Shown in pieces: positions 3,016 to 25,424 of a DNA stretch of 60,125 nucleotides. The stretch covers positions 1 to 60,125 of the forward strand of contig JAUNFZ010000005.1 of NCBI GenBank assembly GCA_030524785.1. Reading direction: 5' to 3'. The position numbers and the translations under genes were made by a program. The first letter of the stretch is position 1; each line of letters begins with the position of its first letter. The notes under the pieces were generated by a model. That model was not told the origin of the DNA. It ran no database searches and saw only the letters and a program-made list of their open reading frames with translations. Source of the stretch: Eubacteriales bacterium (GTDB lineage: Bacteria > Bacillota > Clostridia > Lachnospirales > Lachnospiraceae).

Positions 3016-3905
3016 CGGAAGCTGTGCTTTCCCCGGTTAGAATTGACCGGTATTTGGCTGAGGCTCTGCCGGATGTCTCAAGATCTTACCTTCAAAAACT
3101 TCTGAAGGAGGGCTGTGTTCAGGCCGGCGGCGTTTCGGTAAAACCAAATTACAAAGTTGCCGGAAATGAAACGCTTCTCGTTCGTTTTCCCGGGGAGAAG
3201 GAGCCGGATATTGTGGCTGAGGATATTCCGCTTGATATTCTCTATGAGGATGAAGATCTTCTGGTAGTCAATAAACCAAAGGGTATGGTGGTTCATCCAG
3301 GAGCGGGCCATTACAGCGGCACCCTTGTAAATGCCCTGATGTATCACTGCAAAGACCAGCTCTCCGGTATCAATGGGGTACTGAGGCCGGGGATTGTCCA
3401 CCGTATCGACCGGGATACTACGGGTTCCTTATTGGTCTGTAAAAATGATTTTGCGCATAATCATATCGCAGCGCAGTTAAAAGAACATTCGATCACAAGA
3501 AAATACCGCGCCATCGTACACGGAAATATAAAAGAAGATAACGGAACCGTAAACGCCTGTATCGGGCGCCATCCTGTGGACAGAAAGAAGATGGCGGTTC
3601 ACGTAAAAAACGGCCGGGAGGCAGTAACGCATTATCATGTCTTAAAGCGTTTTGGCCAGTTTACCTATATTGAGTGTCAGCTGGAAACCGGGCGCACTCA
3701 TCAAATCCGCGTGCATATGAGCAGTATCCATCATCCGATTCTGGGTGACGAGGTGTACGGTCCGGCAAAATGTCCGTTTCCCGGTCTGCAGGGGCAGACG
3801 CTTCATGCGCAGGTGCTGGGCTTTGTTCATCCAAGGACAGGACGCTATCTGGAATTTTCGGCGCCTCTGCCGGAATATTTTGAAGCGCTTCTGAGCAAAC
3901 TGTAA
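2994..3905 (+). CDS. rluD: RluA/RluD-family 23S rRNA pseudouridine synthase
   Basis: The 303-residue protein has an N-terminal S4 domain (about 16-75) and a RluA-type catalytic domain. The catalytic aspartate is Asp139 in HRIDRDTTGSLLV. Other family segments are VVNKPKGMVVHPG (91-103), ETGRTHQIRVHM and HPILGD. Location directly after lspA and sequence resemble RluD of other Firmicutes, which modifies helix 69 of 23S rRNA. The exact target uridines cannot be read from the sequence. The start lies inside lspA, so translation is probably coupled. Confidence 0.92.
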   Translation: MAEKIIVTEAVLSPVRIDRYLAEALPDVSRSYLQKLLKEGCVQAGGVSVKPNYKVAGNETLLVRFPGEKEPDIVAEDIPLDILYEDEDLLVVNKPKGMVVHPGAGHYSGTLVNALMYHCKDQLSGINGVLRPGIVHRIDRDTTGSLLVCKNDFAHNHIAAQLKEHSITRKYRAIVHGNIKEDNGTVNACIGRHPVDRKKMAVHVKNGREAVTHYHVLKRFGQFTYIECQLETGRTHQIRVHMSSIHHPILGDEVYGPAKCPFPGLQGQTLHAQVLGFVHPRTGRYLEFSAPLPEYFEALLSKL

Positions 3906-4681: not shown

Positions 4682-5119
4682 ATGAAATTCGTGATTCAGC
4701 GGGTGGAAGAAGCTTCCGTATCCGTAGATAATAAAATCATCGGCGCCATCAAACAGGGCTTTTGCGTCCTGATTGGCGCCGGAAAAAATGACACAACCGA
4801 AAATGCCGACGCACTGATAAAGAAAATGATCGGGCTTCGGATTTTCAGTGATGAAAATGGAAAAACAAATCTTTCACTGAAGGATGTGGGCGGCGGTTTG
4901 CTGCTTGTTTCACAGTTTACCCTTTATGCCAACTGCAAAAAAGGAAACCGCCCAAGTTTTACAGAGGCAGGAGCCCCGGCTATGGCCGAAGCCCTTTATG
5001 AATATATTATCGCTGAATGTCGCAGACAGATTCCCATTGTGGAAACGGGGTCTTTCGGCGCAAAAATGAAAGTGGCTCTGGTAAATGACGGTCCCTTTAC
5101 CATTCTTCTTGAAAATTAG
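4682..5119 (+). CDS. dtd: D-aminoacyl-tRNA deacylase
   Basis: Dtd hydrolyses D-amino acids mischarged on tRNA, and glycine from tRNA-Ala, in the cytosol. The 145-residue length is normal. Family motifs are present: SQFTLYA (77-83), GNRPSF (88-93) and the Gly-cisPro motif at Gly137-Pro138 within NDGPFT. The gene starts five bases after the cytidylate-kinase-like gene. It ends against a convergent recombinase gene, with only a 27-base gap that contains a perfect palindrome overlapping the stop region. Confidence 0.95.
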
Positions 5120-5144
5120 TTTACATAACTTTGTTATGTAAATA
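5118..5144. other. Palindrome with two XerD-like half-sites, or a bidirectional terminator stem
   Basis: A perfect 10-base inverted repeat (5120-5129 and 5133-5142) with a 3-base loop lies between the convergent dtd and recombinase genes. Each arm reads outward as TTATGTAAA, matching the XerD half of Bacillus dif as I remember it. The left arm extends to TTATGTAAACT. The spacer between 11-base arms is five bases, shorter than the six of typical dif. No U-tract follows on either strand, so it is a weak terminator candidate. Confidence 0.5.
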
Positions 5145-5146
5145 AA

Positions 5147-6205
5147 TTATTCTTCCCGGAGTCTGACAGCAGAAGCGGCCATGCGGCGGCGCTTGTCGTC
5201 CATGGCGGCATAATGTTTTTTTGTGGTATTTACATCTTTATGTCCAAGGACGTCGGCCACCAGGTAAATATCGTTTGTTTCCTGATACAGACTTGTTCCG
5301 TAGGTACTGCGAAGCTTATGGGGCGTAATTTTCTTTGTCGTGGTAATCTGGCGCGCATACTTTTTGACCAGATTTTCCACTGCCTGTACGCCGATTCTCC
5401 GGCGCTGGGTGGATAAAAACAGAGCGTTTTCATTACCGGCTACCGGAGTGATGCCTTCACGTTCCTTTAAATAGCCTGTTAAAGCTTTTTCCACCTCATC
5501 ACCAAAATAGACCACCATTTCATTTCCGCCTTTTCGAACAACCTTAATTCCATTGTTCTTAAAATCCACATCGCCAATGTCCAGCCCGACACATTCGGAA
5601 ACACGGATACCTGTGCCCAAAAGCAGAGTTACAATCGCGAGATCACGGGTTTTTGTCTTTTCCCAGTAGACTTTTTTCTGTCCGGACAACTGGGAACCAC
5701 AGTGTTCGATATAATCAAGCAGCAAAGCCGTTTCGTCGGCATCCAGACGTATGATTGCCTTATCATGAATCTTTGGCATATCCACCAGTACGGTGGGATT
5801 TGTTTTTATTTGTTCCCGCTTGAAGAAATAGGCGTAAAATCCACGCAGAGCCACCATTTTTCGCTTCAGGGCACGTTCTCCGTTGGTTTTCATGCCATCC
5901 TCAGAATGATATACCTTCAGGTATTCCAGATATTCTTCGATATCTACCGGCTTTAATCGATCCAGCACGTCCACCGTAAAATCCTCCATGGATTTATTCT
6001 TAAAGGCAGGATTTTCTTCTAAAAGGAACTGAAAAAAAACGCGGATATCGTACGCATAGGAAATTCTGGTTCGCGTAGATGTGGTTGGTTCAATACCGCG
6101 AAAATAATCTTTGGCAAAAGGAGGCATTGTTTTTAAGAGTTCACGAAGCCTCAGTGTGTTGTCAATATCTTTTTGTTCATGGTATGTAAGCTTTGATTTG
6201 TCCAT
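5147..6205 (-). CDS. XerS-like tyrosine recombinase
   Basis: The 352-residue tyrosine recombinase has an N-terminal SAM-like DNA-binding domain (about 35-140) and a C-terminal catalytic domain (150-345). All six catalytic residues are visible: Arg201 (GTGIRVSE), Lys225 (RKGGN), His296 and Arg299 (HKLRS), His322 (LGHKD) and Tyr332. The layout resembles streptococcal XerS: a LKTMPPFAKDYF start, a long N-terminal domain and a KTKTRDLAI segment before the first catalytic Arg. XerS acts alone at a single dif site next to its gene. I chose the ATG at 6205 because AAGGGGG lies 12 bases upstream; the frame could start as far up as 6295. It may be the housekeeping chromosome-dimer resolvase, but an integrase relic is not excluded. 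Confidence 0.85.
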   Translation of the reverse strand: MDKSKLTYHEQKDIDNTLRLRELLKTMPPFAKDYFRGIEPTTSTRTRISYAYDIRVFFQFLLEENPAFKNKSMEDFTVDVLDRLKPVDIEEYLEYLKVYHSEDGMKTNGERALKRKMVALRGFYAYFFKREQIKTNPTVLVDMPKIHDKAIIRLDADETALLLDYIEHCGSQLSGQKKVYWEKTKTRDLAIVTLLLGTGIRVSECVGLDIGDVDFKNNGIKVVRKGGNEMVVYFGDEVEKALTGYLKEREGITPVAGNENALFLSTQRRRIGVQAVENLVKKYARQITTTKKITPHKLRSTYGTSLYQETNDIYLVADVLGHKDVNTTKKHYAAMDDKRRRMAASAVRLREE

Positions 6206-6234
6206 AAAGTATGAAATCCCCCTTATCCCCTGTC

Positions 6235-6270
6235 TATCTATTGGAAAAACTATGGTTTGTCGTATAGATA
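6235..6270. other. Candidate dif-like recombination site upstream of the recombinase
   Basis: An imperfect inverted repeat of two 16-base arms around a 4-base centre (TATG). The left arm is TATCTATTGGAAAAAC (6235-6250) and the right arm is GTTTGTCGTATAGATA (6255-6270). The arms pair at 13 of 16 positions. Size and position 30 bases upstream of a XerS-like gene match the known xerS/difSL arrangement. The GAAAAACTAT core resembles difSL as I remember it. An operator for the recombinase is the main alternative. Confidence 0.5.
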
Positions 6271-6282
6271 TGTCCCGCAAGT

Positions 6283-6310
6283 AAAAGGGTATCACAACCG
6301 ATACCCTTTT
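6283..6310 (-). terminator. Intrinsic terminator of the CAP-domain gene
   Basis: A perfect 11-base stem (6283-6293 and 6300-6310) with a 6-base loop starts one base after the stop codon of the minus-strand gene. The stem ends in four T residues on the minus strand. The U-tract is short, so efficiency is uncertain. Confidence 0.7.
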
Positions 6311-6311
6311 G

Positions 6312-7715
6312 TCAAGCCGTTTTTACCGGGCTGTATTTGCCATAAATACGGTTTCCGCAGGAATCCTTTTTAAAGGCACGTATACGTACATAATATTTTT
6401 GAGCGGTTTTCAAATTCGCAAAGGAATATTTTTTCACGGAATTTCCTGTCATCCGAACTGTTTTGGAAACAGCCTTTTCGAACTTTCTGGATGATGAAAC
6501 GGAAAGTTCATAACCGCTTACTCCGGATATCTTTTTCCAGGAAACGGTAAGCCGCCTTTTTGATTTTGCAAATGATACGGACGATACGGAGGCCTGTTTT
6601 ACTGTAACCTTACTCCAGCGCGCATATAAAGTCTGTGTTTTTCCTTTTGAGATCTTTACAGACGAATTTGACTTAATCCGTGTGCCGCCGCTCTTTTTCG
6701 TATACCAGCCCTTAAATATATAGCCTTTTCTGTAGACGGCCGGAAGATTTCCATATCTCTTTTTATTTGTGACGGTAAGCGCCTTGGTCTTCAGTGAAGA
6801 TGTTTTGCCAAAAGAGCCGCCGTTTGCATTTAGAACAAGGGTTCTGTCCGTTTTGTCCTTTACGTTTACTTTGTATTTCAGGCAAAATCCGGGAGTGGAA
6901 AGGGATTGTGCGTATATAACAGCCGTCCCACGCTTTTTTGCCGTAATCTTTCCGCTGCTGTTTACAGAAACAATACTGGGATTGCTGCTGGTCAGCCGAA
7001 AATTTTTCCAGGAAATCTGCGGAACCACATTGCCGATGGCAAAGGTTGGATAATGATCCATCATGCTTAAAAATTGCAGAGTCAATATCGAGGACGCCCC
7101 TTTATCCAATCGATGTCCATCGCTGCTCTTGCTGGATGAAGATGCGATAAAGCTACATTCATCCATAAGATATCGGGAAACATTGACTCGCACTGTTTTC
7201 GTGGCATTTGATGGTTTTGATGTGCTTTTGGCACTGCTTGTTCCAAATAGCTGTACCCAGCATACCACATTGTTCTGATAGAAACATCCAACCCCGATAC
7301 TTTCACAGGTTTCATCCATCATGTTCTTATAATGGCCTCTGGAATTTTTCCAGGCGTTTACAACACTTGCGGCACTGCTCTGCCCCGCCGCAATATTTTC
7401 AGAATGGGCTTTTGATGAAACCGTAAAACATTCGGAGCCGTCGGGACGTTCGTGGGAAAAGATCAGCGATATTTCCGCCGCTCTCTGCATAGCCGCCTCC
7501 ATCAGGTCGGCATCCATCTCAAGAGCCGAAAGCCCTTGTTTTTTGCGCACTTTATTTGTTTCCTGAAGCACCTCATAAGCTTTTCCATAATCGAATTTAC
7601 CGCGGATATACACGGATACTGAATCAGTCGAAGCATGGACAAAGGATACTCCGGAAAAAACTAAAATGCAGAGGATGGTACTTATTATCAGACGGATTTT
7701 TCTTCCAAATTTCAT
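6312..7715 (-). CDS. Secreted CAP-domain protein with Ig-like, InlB-repeat and Fn3 modules
   Basis: The 467-residue protein begins with a Sec signal peptide (residues 1-28, cleavage near FVHA). A CAP/SCP domain follows (about 45-157) with putative active-site residues His88 (FSHERPDG), Glu106 (SENIA) and His128 (GHYKNM). Next come a bacterial Ig-like BIG2 segment (SNPSIVSVNSSGKITAKKRGTA), an InlB-type B-repeat (GYIFKGWYTKKSGG ... LYARW) and a C-terminal fibronectin type III domain. It is probably exported and cell-surface associated. CAP proteins have diverse roles and no function can be fixed. The ATG at 7715 is chosen because AAAGGGGAG lies just upstream and the signal peptide starts there. 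Confidence 0.85.
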   Translation of the reverse strand: MKFGRKIRLIISTILCILVFSGVSFVHASTDSVSVYIRGKFDYGKAYEVLQETNKVRKKQGLSALEMDADLMEAAMQRAAEISLIFSHERPDGSECFTVSSKAHSENIAAGQSSAASVVNAWKNSRGHYKNMMDETCESIGVGCFYQNNVVCWVQLFGTSSAKSTSKPSNATKTVRVNVSRYLMDECSFIASSSSKSSDGHRLDKGASSILTLQFLSMMDHYPTFAIGNVVPQISWKNFRLTSSNPSIVSVNSSGKITAKKRGTAVIYAQSLSTPGFCLKYKVNVKDKTDRTLVLNANGGSFGKTSSLKTKALTVTNKKRYGNLPAVYRKGYIFKGWYTKKSGGTRIKSNSSVKISKGKTQTLYARWSKVTVKQASVSSVSFAKSKRRLTVSWKKISGVSGYELSVSSSRKFEKAVSKTVRMTGNSVKKYSFANLKTAQKYYVRIRAFKKDSCGNRIYGKYSPVKTA

Positions 7716-7859
7716 AGCTCTCCCCTTTTCTGACAGAGGGCGAAATACCCCGCATAAACAGCTGTTTTTGGAAAATGATTTTCTGATAATATCATAACAC
7801 AATTTTTTCAGTTTCTGTAGTATTTTTTGCCGCACAGCCGGCTTAACCTTTCGCAGCGG

Positions 7860-24293: not shown

Positions 24294-25424
24294 ATGAGAA
24301 AAAAATTATTCGCAGCGGTGCTGTCTTTTTGTATATGCCTGTCGGGCGTATCCCCGGCCTGGGCGCAGGACAGTCCGGCGGAAACTGAAACAGAAACCGC
24401 GTCAGAAAGAACGACTGCGGCAGAAAATGGGACTGAAGGTTCAGCGGATACCGGGACTGAAACTGAAACAGAAACTGAGGCAGTCACTGCCGGAGAACTT
24501 CTGGAAAAATCTATGGAGTATCTATCGGAGGTAAAATCCAGCACCAGTCAGATAGAATTTTGCCTTAACGCAGGCATTGGCGCATCCTCAGAGGACCGTG
24601 AAGCCTCCTCCACTGAATATGGCCTGAAGGGCCTTTTAACTCTCAAGACCATTGCAGAACCGCTGCAGGCCGGCGTCACGGGGAGCATACAGCTTACGTA
24701 TGGTTCTTTTACACAGGATTTTGACGTGGAACTATATCTTACTGCGGAAAAAGACAATACGGCCTTCGACCTTTTTGCACAGGCGTCGGCCGATGGGCGT
24801 AAGTCCGAATGGCAGCACTTAGAGCTGGATGCAGACGATCTTTTCAATACCCTTGGCATCACTGATCTTGATGAGTTAAAGGAAAAGGGGCTGTCCGGAA
24901 GTATTTTTGAAGCAAAGGACTGGGAAGTTGAGGAAACTGGGGAAAGCTACCTCCTGACACGTTCACAGACGCCTGAAGATACGCTTGAGAAGCTGGATTT
25001 GATTTTAAACTCTCCCCTTCTGTCCGATATTCCTTCCATGTATCTTGACATGTTAAAAAGCGCCGCAAAGGGAATTTCGGCGGACATCACCTATACGCTG
25101 GACAAAGATACCTGCGCGCCGCTGCACCAGTACATTGATTACGGAAAATCGGATTTCTCAGAATTTAGCCGTAAACTCTCCGAGCTGGTAAATTCCATAC
25201 TGGATGATGCATCGGCCGCAGCAAGCAGCACTGACGACGCTCAGGAAGCAGAGACAGACCGGGAACCGGTTCAGGTAGATCTTACGCTGATGCTGAACGA
25301 TTACTATATCAGCCAGTCCAATACTTACAACGACGTGGAAGAAATACAGATCCCGGCAGAAGCTCTGCTTGCAAAGGTTTTCAGTGTTTCTGATCTTCTA
25401 TTGTTCAAAACGGACATGGATTGA
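24294..25424 (+). CDS. Secreted protein of unknown function, nested in the his cluster
   Basis: The 376-residue protein has a Sec signal peptide (1-24, cleavage after PAWA). An acidic Glu/Thr-rich spacer (about 30-64, repeated TETETE) follows. The mature domain has alternating-polarity strands resembling LppX/LolA-like lipid-binding folds (for example LKGLLTLKTIAEPLQAGVTG), but I cannot assign a family with confidence. A signal-peptidase-I product is more likely than a lipoprotein. AAGGAG precedes the ATG at 24294. It is convergent with hisD and overlaps its 3' end by 27 bases. Confidence 0.75.
   Translation: MRKKLFAAVLSFCICLSGVSPAWAQDSPAETETETASERTTAAENGTEGSADTGTETETETEAVTAGELLEKSMEYLSEVKSSTSQIEFCLNAGIGASSEDREASSTEYGLKGLLTLKTIAEPLQAGVTGSIQLTYGSFTQDFDVELYLTAEKDNTAFDLFAQASADGRKSEWQHLELDADDLFNTLGITDLDELKEKGLSGSIFEAKDWEVEETGESYLLTRSQTPEDTLEKLDLILNSPLLSDIPSMYLDMLKSAAKGISADITYTLDKDTCAPLHQYIDYGKSDFSEFSRKLSELVNSILDDASAAASSTDDAQEAETDREPVQVDLTLMLNDYYISQSNTYNDVEEIQIPAEALLAKVFSVSDLLLFKTDMD

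Follow-up and report, generated by a model that had tools for sequence, protein, structure and literature searches.

A probable XerS/difSL-type module at the likely replication terminus of Lachnospiraceae and an accompanying lysine-less XerD

The accessible parts of PMC5357621 and PMC3025954 deal with single-recombinase XerS systems of streptococci and lactococci, and the latter excerpt also mentions one Lactobacillus in which XerS occurs together with XerC and XerD. Xer proteins in general are the subject of PMC8138268, as far as its accessible text goes. For Bacillus subtilis, XerD has been reported as a site-specific unloader of SMC at the terminus (Karaboja et al. 2021, as cited in extracts of PMC12322038, PMC8242196 and PMC13342612). 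No published account of a XerS/XerD system in Lachnospiraceae was recognised among the matches listed by a literature search with subscription papers and preprints outside its range.

The locus described here belongs to a 60,125-nucleotide stretch of Lachnospiraceae DNA, the whole of which is referred to as the window, and its features are compiled in Table 1. Among the NCBIfam models, XerS gave the highest score for the window recombinase (214.7 bits), followed by XerA (173.2), XerC (166.3) and XerD (153.5), corresponding to a lead of 41 bits over the next model. A resemblance to streptococcal XerS, as claimed in the initial annotation, is hence borne out by the best-scoring model, though its score stays below the curated cut-off for XerS (267), and because of this the protein is called XerS-like and functional likeness is claimed rather than membership of curated XerS. 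The residues R201, K225, H296, R299, H322 and Y332, which we take to be the catalytic ones, are all kept in the alignment of the window protein, in agreement with what had been read from the sequence. Across 18 aligned Lachnospiraceae members of this recombinase, the R, K, H, R and H positions are invariant (18/18), while Tyr332 aligns in 16 and a nearby tyrosine is shifted in the alignment of the other two (L063 and L064). Orthologues of xerS (E <= 1e-30) were found in 139/150 family genomes, or 122/126 when only those of good quality are counted, and are usually present as a single copy per genome. Two separate XerS-like genes at the same threshold occur in three family genomes (G003, G143 and G039); those of G003 (L065 and L123, on G003:C2) are no more than 5 kb apart and have two of the XerD-type palindromes described below in their vicinity. 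A tree of 39 proteins, comprising 18 Lachnospiraceae recombinases, 6 XerS proteins over the cut-off and 15 XerDs (no XerC, no XerH), split the Lachnospiraceae recombinases together with XerS from all 15 XerDs with full support; under midpoint rooting, the Lachnospiraceae recombinases and the over-cut-off XerS proteins are sister groups.

Table 1. Features at the xerS-like locus of the window, with coordinates, strand and the basis of each assignment
Feature	Coordinates	Strand	Basis or sequence
dtd, D-aminoacyl-tRNA deacylase, convergent neighbour of xerS	4682..5119	+	TIGR00256, 177.7 bits, cut-off 101.5
XerD-type palindrome, putative XerD site	5118..5144		AGTTTACATAA-CTTTG-TTATGTAAATA; where the ends of dtd and xerS meet (convergent genes)
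Likely replication terminus	5120..6270		GC skew changes from plus to minus; gene orientation converges (dtd +, xerS -)
xerS-like tyrosine recombinase, 352 aa	5147..6205	-	ORF with ATG at 6205; NF003462 XerS is the top model
dif-like site, XerS type	6235..6270	+	TATCTATTGGAAAAA-CTATGG-TTTGTCGTATAGATA; inverted repeat and conservation upstream of orthologues

The initial annotation had described a 36-base palindrome with 16-base arms, 13 of 16 positions paired and a 4-base centre, and its coordinates proved exact: arms at 6235-6250 and 6255-6270 are 81% complementary (13/16) around a centre of 4 nt. The palindrome lies upstream of the gene, separated from the ATG (6205, minus strand) by 29 bases in our count where 30 had been given. 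Read as a dif-like site, it consists of arms of about 15 bp flanking a 6-bp centre, with a core of AAA-N6-TTT. The geometry alone is only weakly unusual and not remarkable, as the window holds three 13/16 palindromes of this kind where 20 dinucleotide shuffles contained 0.4 on average, and the idea that the palindrome is improbable by itself was rejected on these grounds. It is taken as real because it is conserved beside orthologues. A search of the window with the core pattern at up to 3 mismatches returned the dif-like site, its opposite-strand copy and, at chance level, a single further match at 24502 that is unrelated to it. Between the site and a CAP-domain-like gene at 6312-7835, a perfect 11-bp hairpin (AAAAGGGTATC...GATACCCTTTT, 6283-6310) was observed, which looks like an intrinsic terminator of the latter gene on the minus strand.

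Conservation was assessed with a site profile built from the sites upstream of orthologues in Lachnospiraceae loci. A site was detected no more than 1 kb upstream of the xerS orthologue in 57/70 family loci, a set that is not random (30 best matches plus 40 chosen stretches, many of them distant or on long contigs) and part of which had served to train the profile, and in 61/80 named loci, of which at least three records (L161, L162 and L171) appear to repeat family loci. Where at least 400 bp of upstream sequence were available, the site was present in 55/67 family and 58/77 named loci, with 2/3 and 3/3, respectively, for the shorter ones. As controls, downstream flanks gave 0/70 family and 0/78 named loci (0/148 in total), and dinucleotide-shuffled upstream regions gave 0/67 and 1/77. 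Over 106 distinct sites, 0.752 of arm positions are paired, while re-dealing the right arms yielded a mean of 0.668 and reached 0.752 in 0/500 rounds, from which it follows that the two arms co-vary. The core AAA-N6-TTT is invariant among accepted sites, which is partly an effect of profile selection, and the orientation of the site relative to xerS is the same in 101/118 cases. A palindrome left unconserved beside orthologues had been named as evidence against the original reading; the counts of 57/70 and 61/80 speak to the contrary.

No site was found within 1 kb in 13/70 family and 19/80 named loci. For 7 of those 19 named loci, a search run without a shuffled control placed a site 1.3-7.9 kb upstream of xerS. 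In the five of these that were read by eye, the ORFs between the distant site and xerS resemble a TtcA-like PP-loop ATPase, an AI-2E-type transporter, ABC transporters and large surface proteins. A mobile element in this interval was considered and rejected, as no integrase was seen by eye in L189, L195, L204, L214 and L220. The L214 locus carries a half-site-like stretch (base 1877) 12 bp upstream of xerS and a full dif-like site (~7950) 6 kb upstream, with large surface-protein-like ORFs between the two, possibly reflecting an insertion at the site. L033 (G013:C24, ~3240-3370) carries two partial dif-like sites spaced about 94 bp apart, some 770 bp upstream of its xerS, an arrangement that looks like a duplication of the site or an invasion into it. 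Outside the family, the profile, in a search confined to AAA-N6-TTT cores, detected CATCTTTCCGAAAAACTATAATTTTCTTGAAAAATA just upstream of an over-cut-off XerS gene (557 bits) at the L124 locus of another family; its arms equal the difSL arms TTTCCGAAAA and TTTTCTTGAAA given in the excerpt of PMC5357621. No convincing site was detected with the same profile in the fetched XerS flanks of four genomes of a second XerS-bearing family and of G417. This second family, with genomes of 5.6-7.3 Mb, carries over-cut-off XerS (L126-L129, in G171, G254, G368 and G215).

An examination of GC skew had been proposed as a check on the terminus location, and the sign indeed switches at the module. With 3-kb bins, the first two bins of the window are positive and every later one is negative, and the cumulative G-C maximum falls on base 5351, inside xerS; only about 5 kb of contig lie to the left of this maximum, and 1-kb bins are noisy, with two later ones slightly positive. 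In addition, dnaA was searched in 14 genomes and shares a contig with xerS in 8 of them, the two genes being on different contigs in 6. Expressed as a fraction of the chromosome, the distance of xerS from dnaA amounts to 0.473 (G046), 0.478 (G102), 0.488 (G085), 0.49 (G138) and 0.515 (G035) in five near-complete genomes, and to ~0.44 (G005) and ~0.50 (G149) on partial contigs when the genome size is used as given. Hence, xerS lies roughly opposite dnaA (0.44-0.52) in 7/8 measurable genomes. The exception is G062, which does not fit a terminus position, as its xerS and dnaA are separated by no more than 0.4 Mb of a genome of 2.2 Mb (~0.18).

Judged from sequence, the region 5147-6270 very probably represents a chromosome-dimer-resolution module of the XerS/difSL type at the replication terminus. 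The possibility of a one-recombinase dimer system in Clostridia, raised in the initial annotation, thus gains support from the conserved site, the terminus position and the count of 0/150 genomes with XerC over the cut-off. In such a system, a XerS dimer would occupy both arms of the 6235-6270 site. The two sites of a dimeric chromosome would then be paired at the septum, presumably through FtsK, whose gamma domain was recognised in the source genome with 93.2 bits, and cleavage and strand exchange by four XerS molecules across the 6-bp centre would yield monomeric chromosomes.

The lysine between strands beta2 and beta3 (GKG in E. coli XerD) is catalytic in tyrosine recombinases, and it is here that the XerD of this family stands out. 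The source assembly (92% complete) contains 14 tyrosine-recombinase matches, among which, at the thresholds used, one XerC/D-type gene was found besides xerS. This xerD is located on another contig, where a SpoIIM-like gene (48.1 bits against a model cut-off of 100.2) lies upstream of it, and passes TIGR02225 with 349.7 over 329.6. XerC (TIGR02224) was found over the cut-off in 0/150 family genomes, a cut-off that is strict, with 2/5 control genomes passing; the best TIGR02224 scores in the family, up to 312.8, belong to genes that exceed the cut-off of the XerC/D subfamily model NF001399 as well. A gene over this NF001399 cut-off is present in 78/150 family genomes. From these 78 XerDs, 72 were aligned (G010, G024, G047, G076, G081 and G100 being left out), and the catalytic lysine is absent in 72/72: the position is occupied by D in 48, E in 15, S in 4 and other residues in 5, so that Asp or Glu replaces it in 63/72. 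The outgroup, 30 XerDs from other families of the phylum (119 genomes searched), keeps the lysine in 30/30, these being the best-scoring sequences and therefore biased to typical ones. The remaining catalytic residues of the family XerDs are well preserved (R 70, H 68, R 72, H 72 and Y 71, of 72), which argues against simple decay and leaves residual catalysis possible, and which is odd for a XerD that no longer needs catalysis. Two XerDs taken from the second, distant XerS-bearing family (G171 and G254) have T and S at the lysine position. They and the Lachnospiraceae XerDs fall on separate supported branches of the tree with an unresolved branching order, and for this reason independent losses of the lysine in the two families are regarded as likely and not as shown. 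A truncated XerD was observed in the single-contig genome G085 (L117, G085:C1:1706932-1707669), where the first of the catalytic arginines is missing, as are the catalytic residues of the C-terminal part. A minority of family genomes carries a second XerC/D-like class of about 200-245 bits, and the two copies seen, L115 (G046:C1:277780) and L116 (G028:C15:58627), keep the GKG lysine.

By the thresholds applied, the family hence appears to have no functional XerC/XerD pair, with XerC at 0/150 and the lysine missing from 72/72 aligned XerDs, while a minority has the second lower-scoring gene. Separate xerC and xerD genes with a canonical dif site had been named as the other observation speaking against a single-recombinase system. 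A xerD on another contig does exist, but XerC is found over the cut-off in 0/150 and the XerD has lost its lysine. A B. subtilis-type dif with up to 3 mismatches is absent from the window, and a looser half-pattern gave 1 match there against 1.9 expected.

In addition to the dif-like site, the locus holds a second type of palindrome, and this element and the lysine-less XerD both point beyond the earlier reading. The palindrome at 5118-5144 overlaps the last two bases of dtd and is the single match to TTTACATAA-N3..8-TTATGTAAA in the source assembly. The excerpt of PMC3025954 gives the half-site TTATGTAAACT as the right dif arm of B. subtilis. Searching the 27-mer with up to 3 mismatches yielded 45 sites in 32/150 family genomes, the backward-read control giving 7 genomes with one match each, and the palindrome occurs without mismatch in 8 genera. 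As many as 34/45 palindromes are on the xerS contig; their distance to xerS is at most 50 kb in 32 cases, where uniform placement expects 1.3, and at most 5 kb in 19; the remaining 11/45 are on other contigs or in genomes for which no xerS was found. In the 80 named loci (1.14 Mb around xerS), 38 palindromes were obtained with up to 4 mismatches vs 1 with the reversed pattern. Their presence also follows that of XerD: an over-cut-off XerC/D-type gene is found in 28/32 palindrome genomes vs 50/118 others (p = 5e-6). For the palindrome genomes without such a gene, G072 has a low-scoring match and G085 a low-scoring, truncated copy, while in G033 and G065 the XerC/D model finds no gene at E <= 1e-50. 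In G085, a three-mismatch XerD palindrome remains 6.6 kb from xerS. Conversely, 50/78 genomes with a XerC/D-type gene show no palindrome at up to 3 mismatches. Outside the family, 19 genomes were searched (6 with XerS, 13 without known XerS), and the palindrome was present in 1 of the former and 2 of the latter; in the second XerS family, none of the four genomes had a XerD palindrome. Two to three copies are carried by 12/32 palindrome genomes. The 5-bp spacers of these copies differ where compared, and the copies in one genome are therefore unlikely to be products of mutual recombination. For the same reason, the idea that palindromes of the 5118-5144 type mark an integrated dif-hijacking element was rejected.

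By analogy with B. subtilis, the lysine-less XerD may be kept for another job at the terminus, perhaps SMC unloading, a suggestion that we hold about as firmly as we doubt it. Such an unloader role fits a XerD that lacks the lysine and is otherwise conserved, together with the paired half-sites that part of the family carries close to the terminus. A XerD of this kind would no longer recombine well and would sit on the palindromic XerD sites around xerS, one of them at 5118-5144, where it could perhaps function as a terminus-specific SMC unloader. In its fuller form, the proposal is that the two jobs of XerD have been separated in Lachnospiraceae and apparently also in the second XerS family: XerS would have taken over dimer resolution, XerC would have been lost, and the lysine-less XerD would have become a terminus marker with a MatP-like role, placed in many genomes on palindromes around xerS and probably unloading SMC. 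In our estimate, the case for and the case against this scenario are evenly balanced.

Both palindromes of the locus can be read in other ways. The 36-bp element might be an operator for xerS transcription, bound by the recombinase or by some other regulator, and no recombination site; its place 29 bp upstream of the start codon is where an operator would be expected, and its usually constant orientation (101/118) would suit this function. An operator is hardly compatible, however, with the 7/19 loci in which the site lies 1.3-7.9 kb away with other ORFs in between (in the loci read), nor does it account for a site that matches difSL in register and sits at the GC-skew switch, and the explanation appears very improbable. 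The palindrome at 5118-5144 might be only a bidirectional transcription terminator between convergent dtd and xerS, in keeping with its location at their two stop codons. Since its stem is A-T at 9/11 positions, its sequence is common to several genera, copies can be as far as tens of kb away from xerS and its presence tracks the XerC/D-type gene, we consider this improbable.

The remaining alternatives concern the state of XerD itself. Two recombination systems could operate side by side, with XerS acting at the difSL-like site and an active XerD acting alone at a symmetric dif composed of two XerD half-sites, as found at 5118-5144 and in relatives. Five of the six catalytic residues are kept in at least 68/72 copies, the half-site has exactly the sequence that the excerpt of PMC3025954 gives for the right dif arm of B. 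subtilis, and the palindromes sit near xerS, all of which would be in keeping with an active enzyme. Yet the lysine is lost in 72/72, mostly in favour of an acid, the differing spacers (where compared) among the 2-3 copies of 12/32 genomes do not fit an exchange between copies, and the searched spacer measures 5 bp vs 6 in dif, which renders two active systems unlikely. Alternatively, XerD may have become functionless and be decaying after the takeover by XerS, leaving the palindromes as relics of old dif sites. This would agree with the occurrence of an over-cut-off XerC/D-type gene in only 78/150 genomes and with the one truncated copy (L117 in G085), but not with the near-complete retention of the remaining catalytic residues in 72 aligned copies, the non-random replacement of the lysine (Asp/Glu in 63/72) or mismatch-free palindromes in 8 genera; decay, too, is judged unlikely.

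With XerS as the putative dimer resolvase and the lysine-less XerD as a possible terminus marker, the XerS system now extends to 139/150 genomes sampled from a large gut-bacterial family, and an apparent natural separation of functions comes into view, represented by lysine-less XerD and XerD-type sites near the terminus. This makes testable whether XerD can unload SMC without recombining, and whether XerC was lost and XerD disarmed after XerS had arrived. Moreover, candidate dif sites become available for a group with many sequenced and few tractable species.

In comparison with known systems, B. subtilis XerD and its function in SMC unloading, as far as the cited extracts describe it, share with the present case XerD-type sites at the terminus and a XerD role other than dimer resolution. 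The Lachnospiraceae case differs by paired palindromic half-sites with a 5-bp spacer and by a lysine-less XerD. XerCD/dif, the system of most bacteria, has the terminus location and the tyrosine-recombinase chemistry in common with the locus, and the source XerD passes the XerD equivalog model; in contrast, XerC over the cut-off is found in 0/150, the site differs from the asymmetric 28-bp dif, and XerD is without the catalytic lysine. XerH/difH of epsilon-proteobacteria resembles the module in its lone recombinase of similar length, a site often located beside the gene and a similar core (PMC2731167, in its accessible part), whereas the sequence is more distant (47.7 bits for PDB XerH vs 79 for XerA). 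For XerS/difSL of Streptococcus and Lactococcus, the differences are the host family, which belongs to Clostridia, a window score below the curated XerS cut-off, a 6-bp centre vs the 11 bp given for difSL in the excerpt of PMC5357621, and the lysine-less XerD and XerD palindromes that occur alongside in part of Lachnospiraceae. Shared with XerS/difSL are a single recombinase of about 350-356 aa (352 aa here), a site beside its own gene at the terminus, with GAAAAACTAT-NN-TTT in the window site as in difSL, and a tree that sets the Lachnospiraceae recombinase and XerS apart from XerD.
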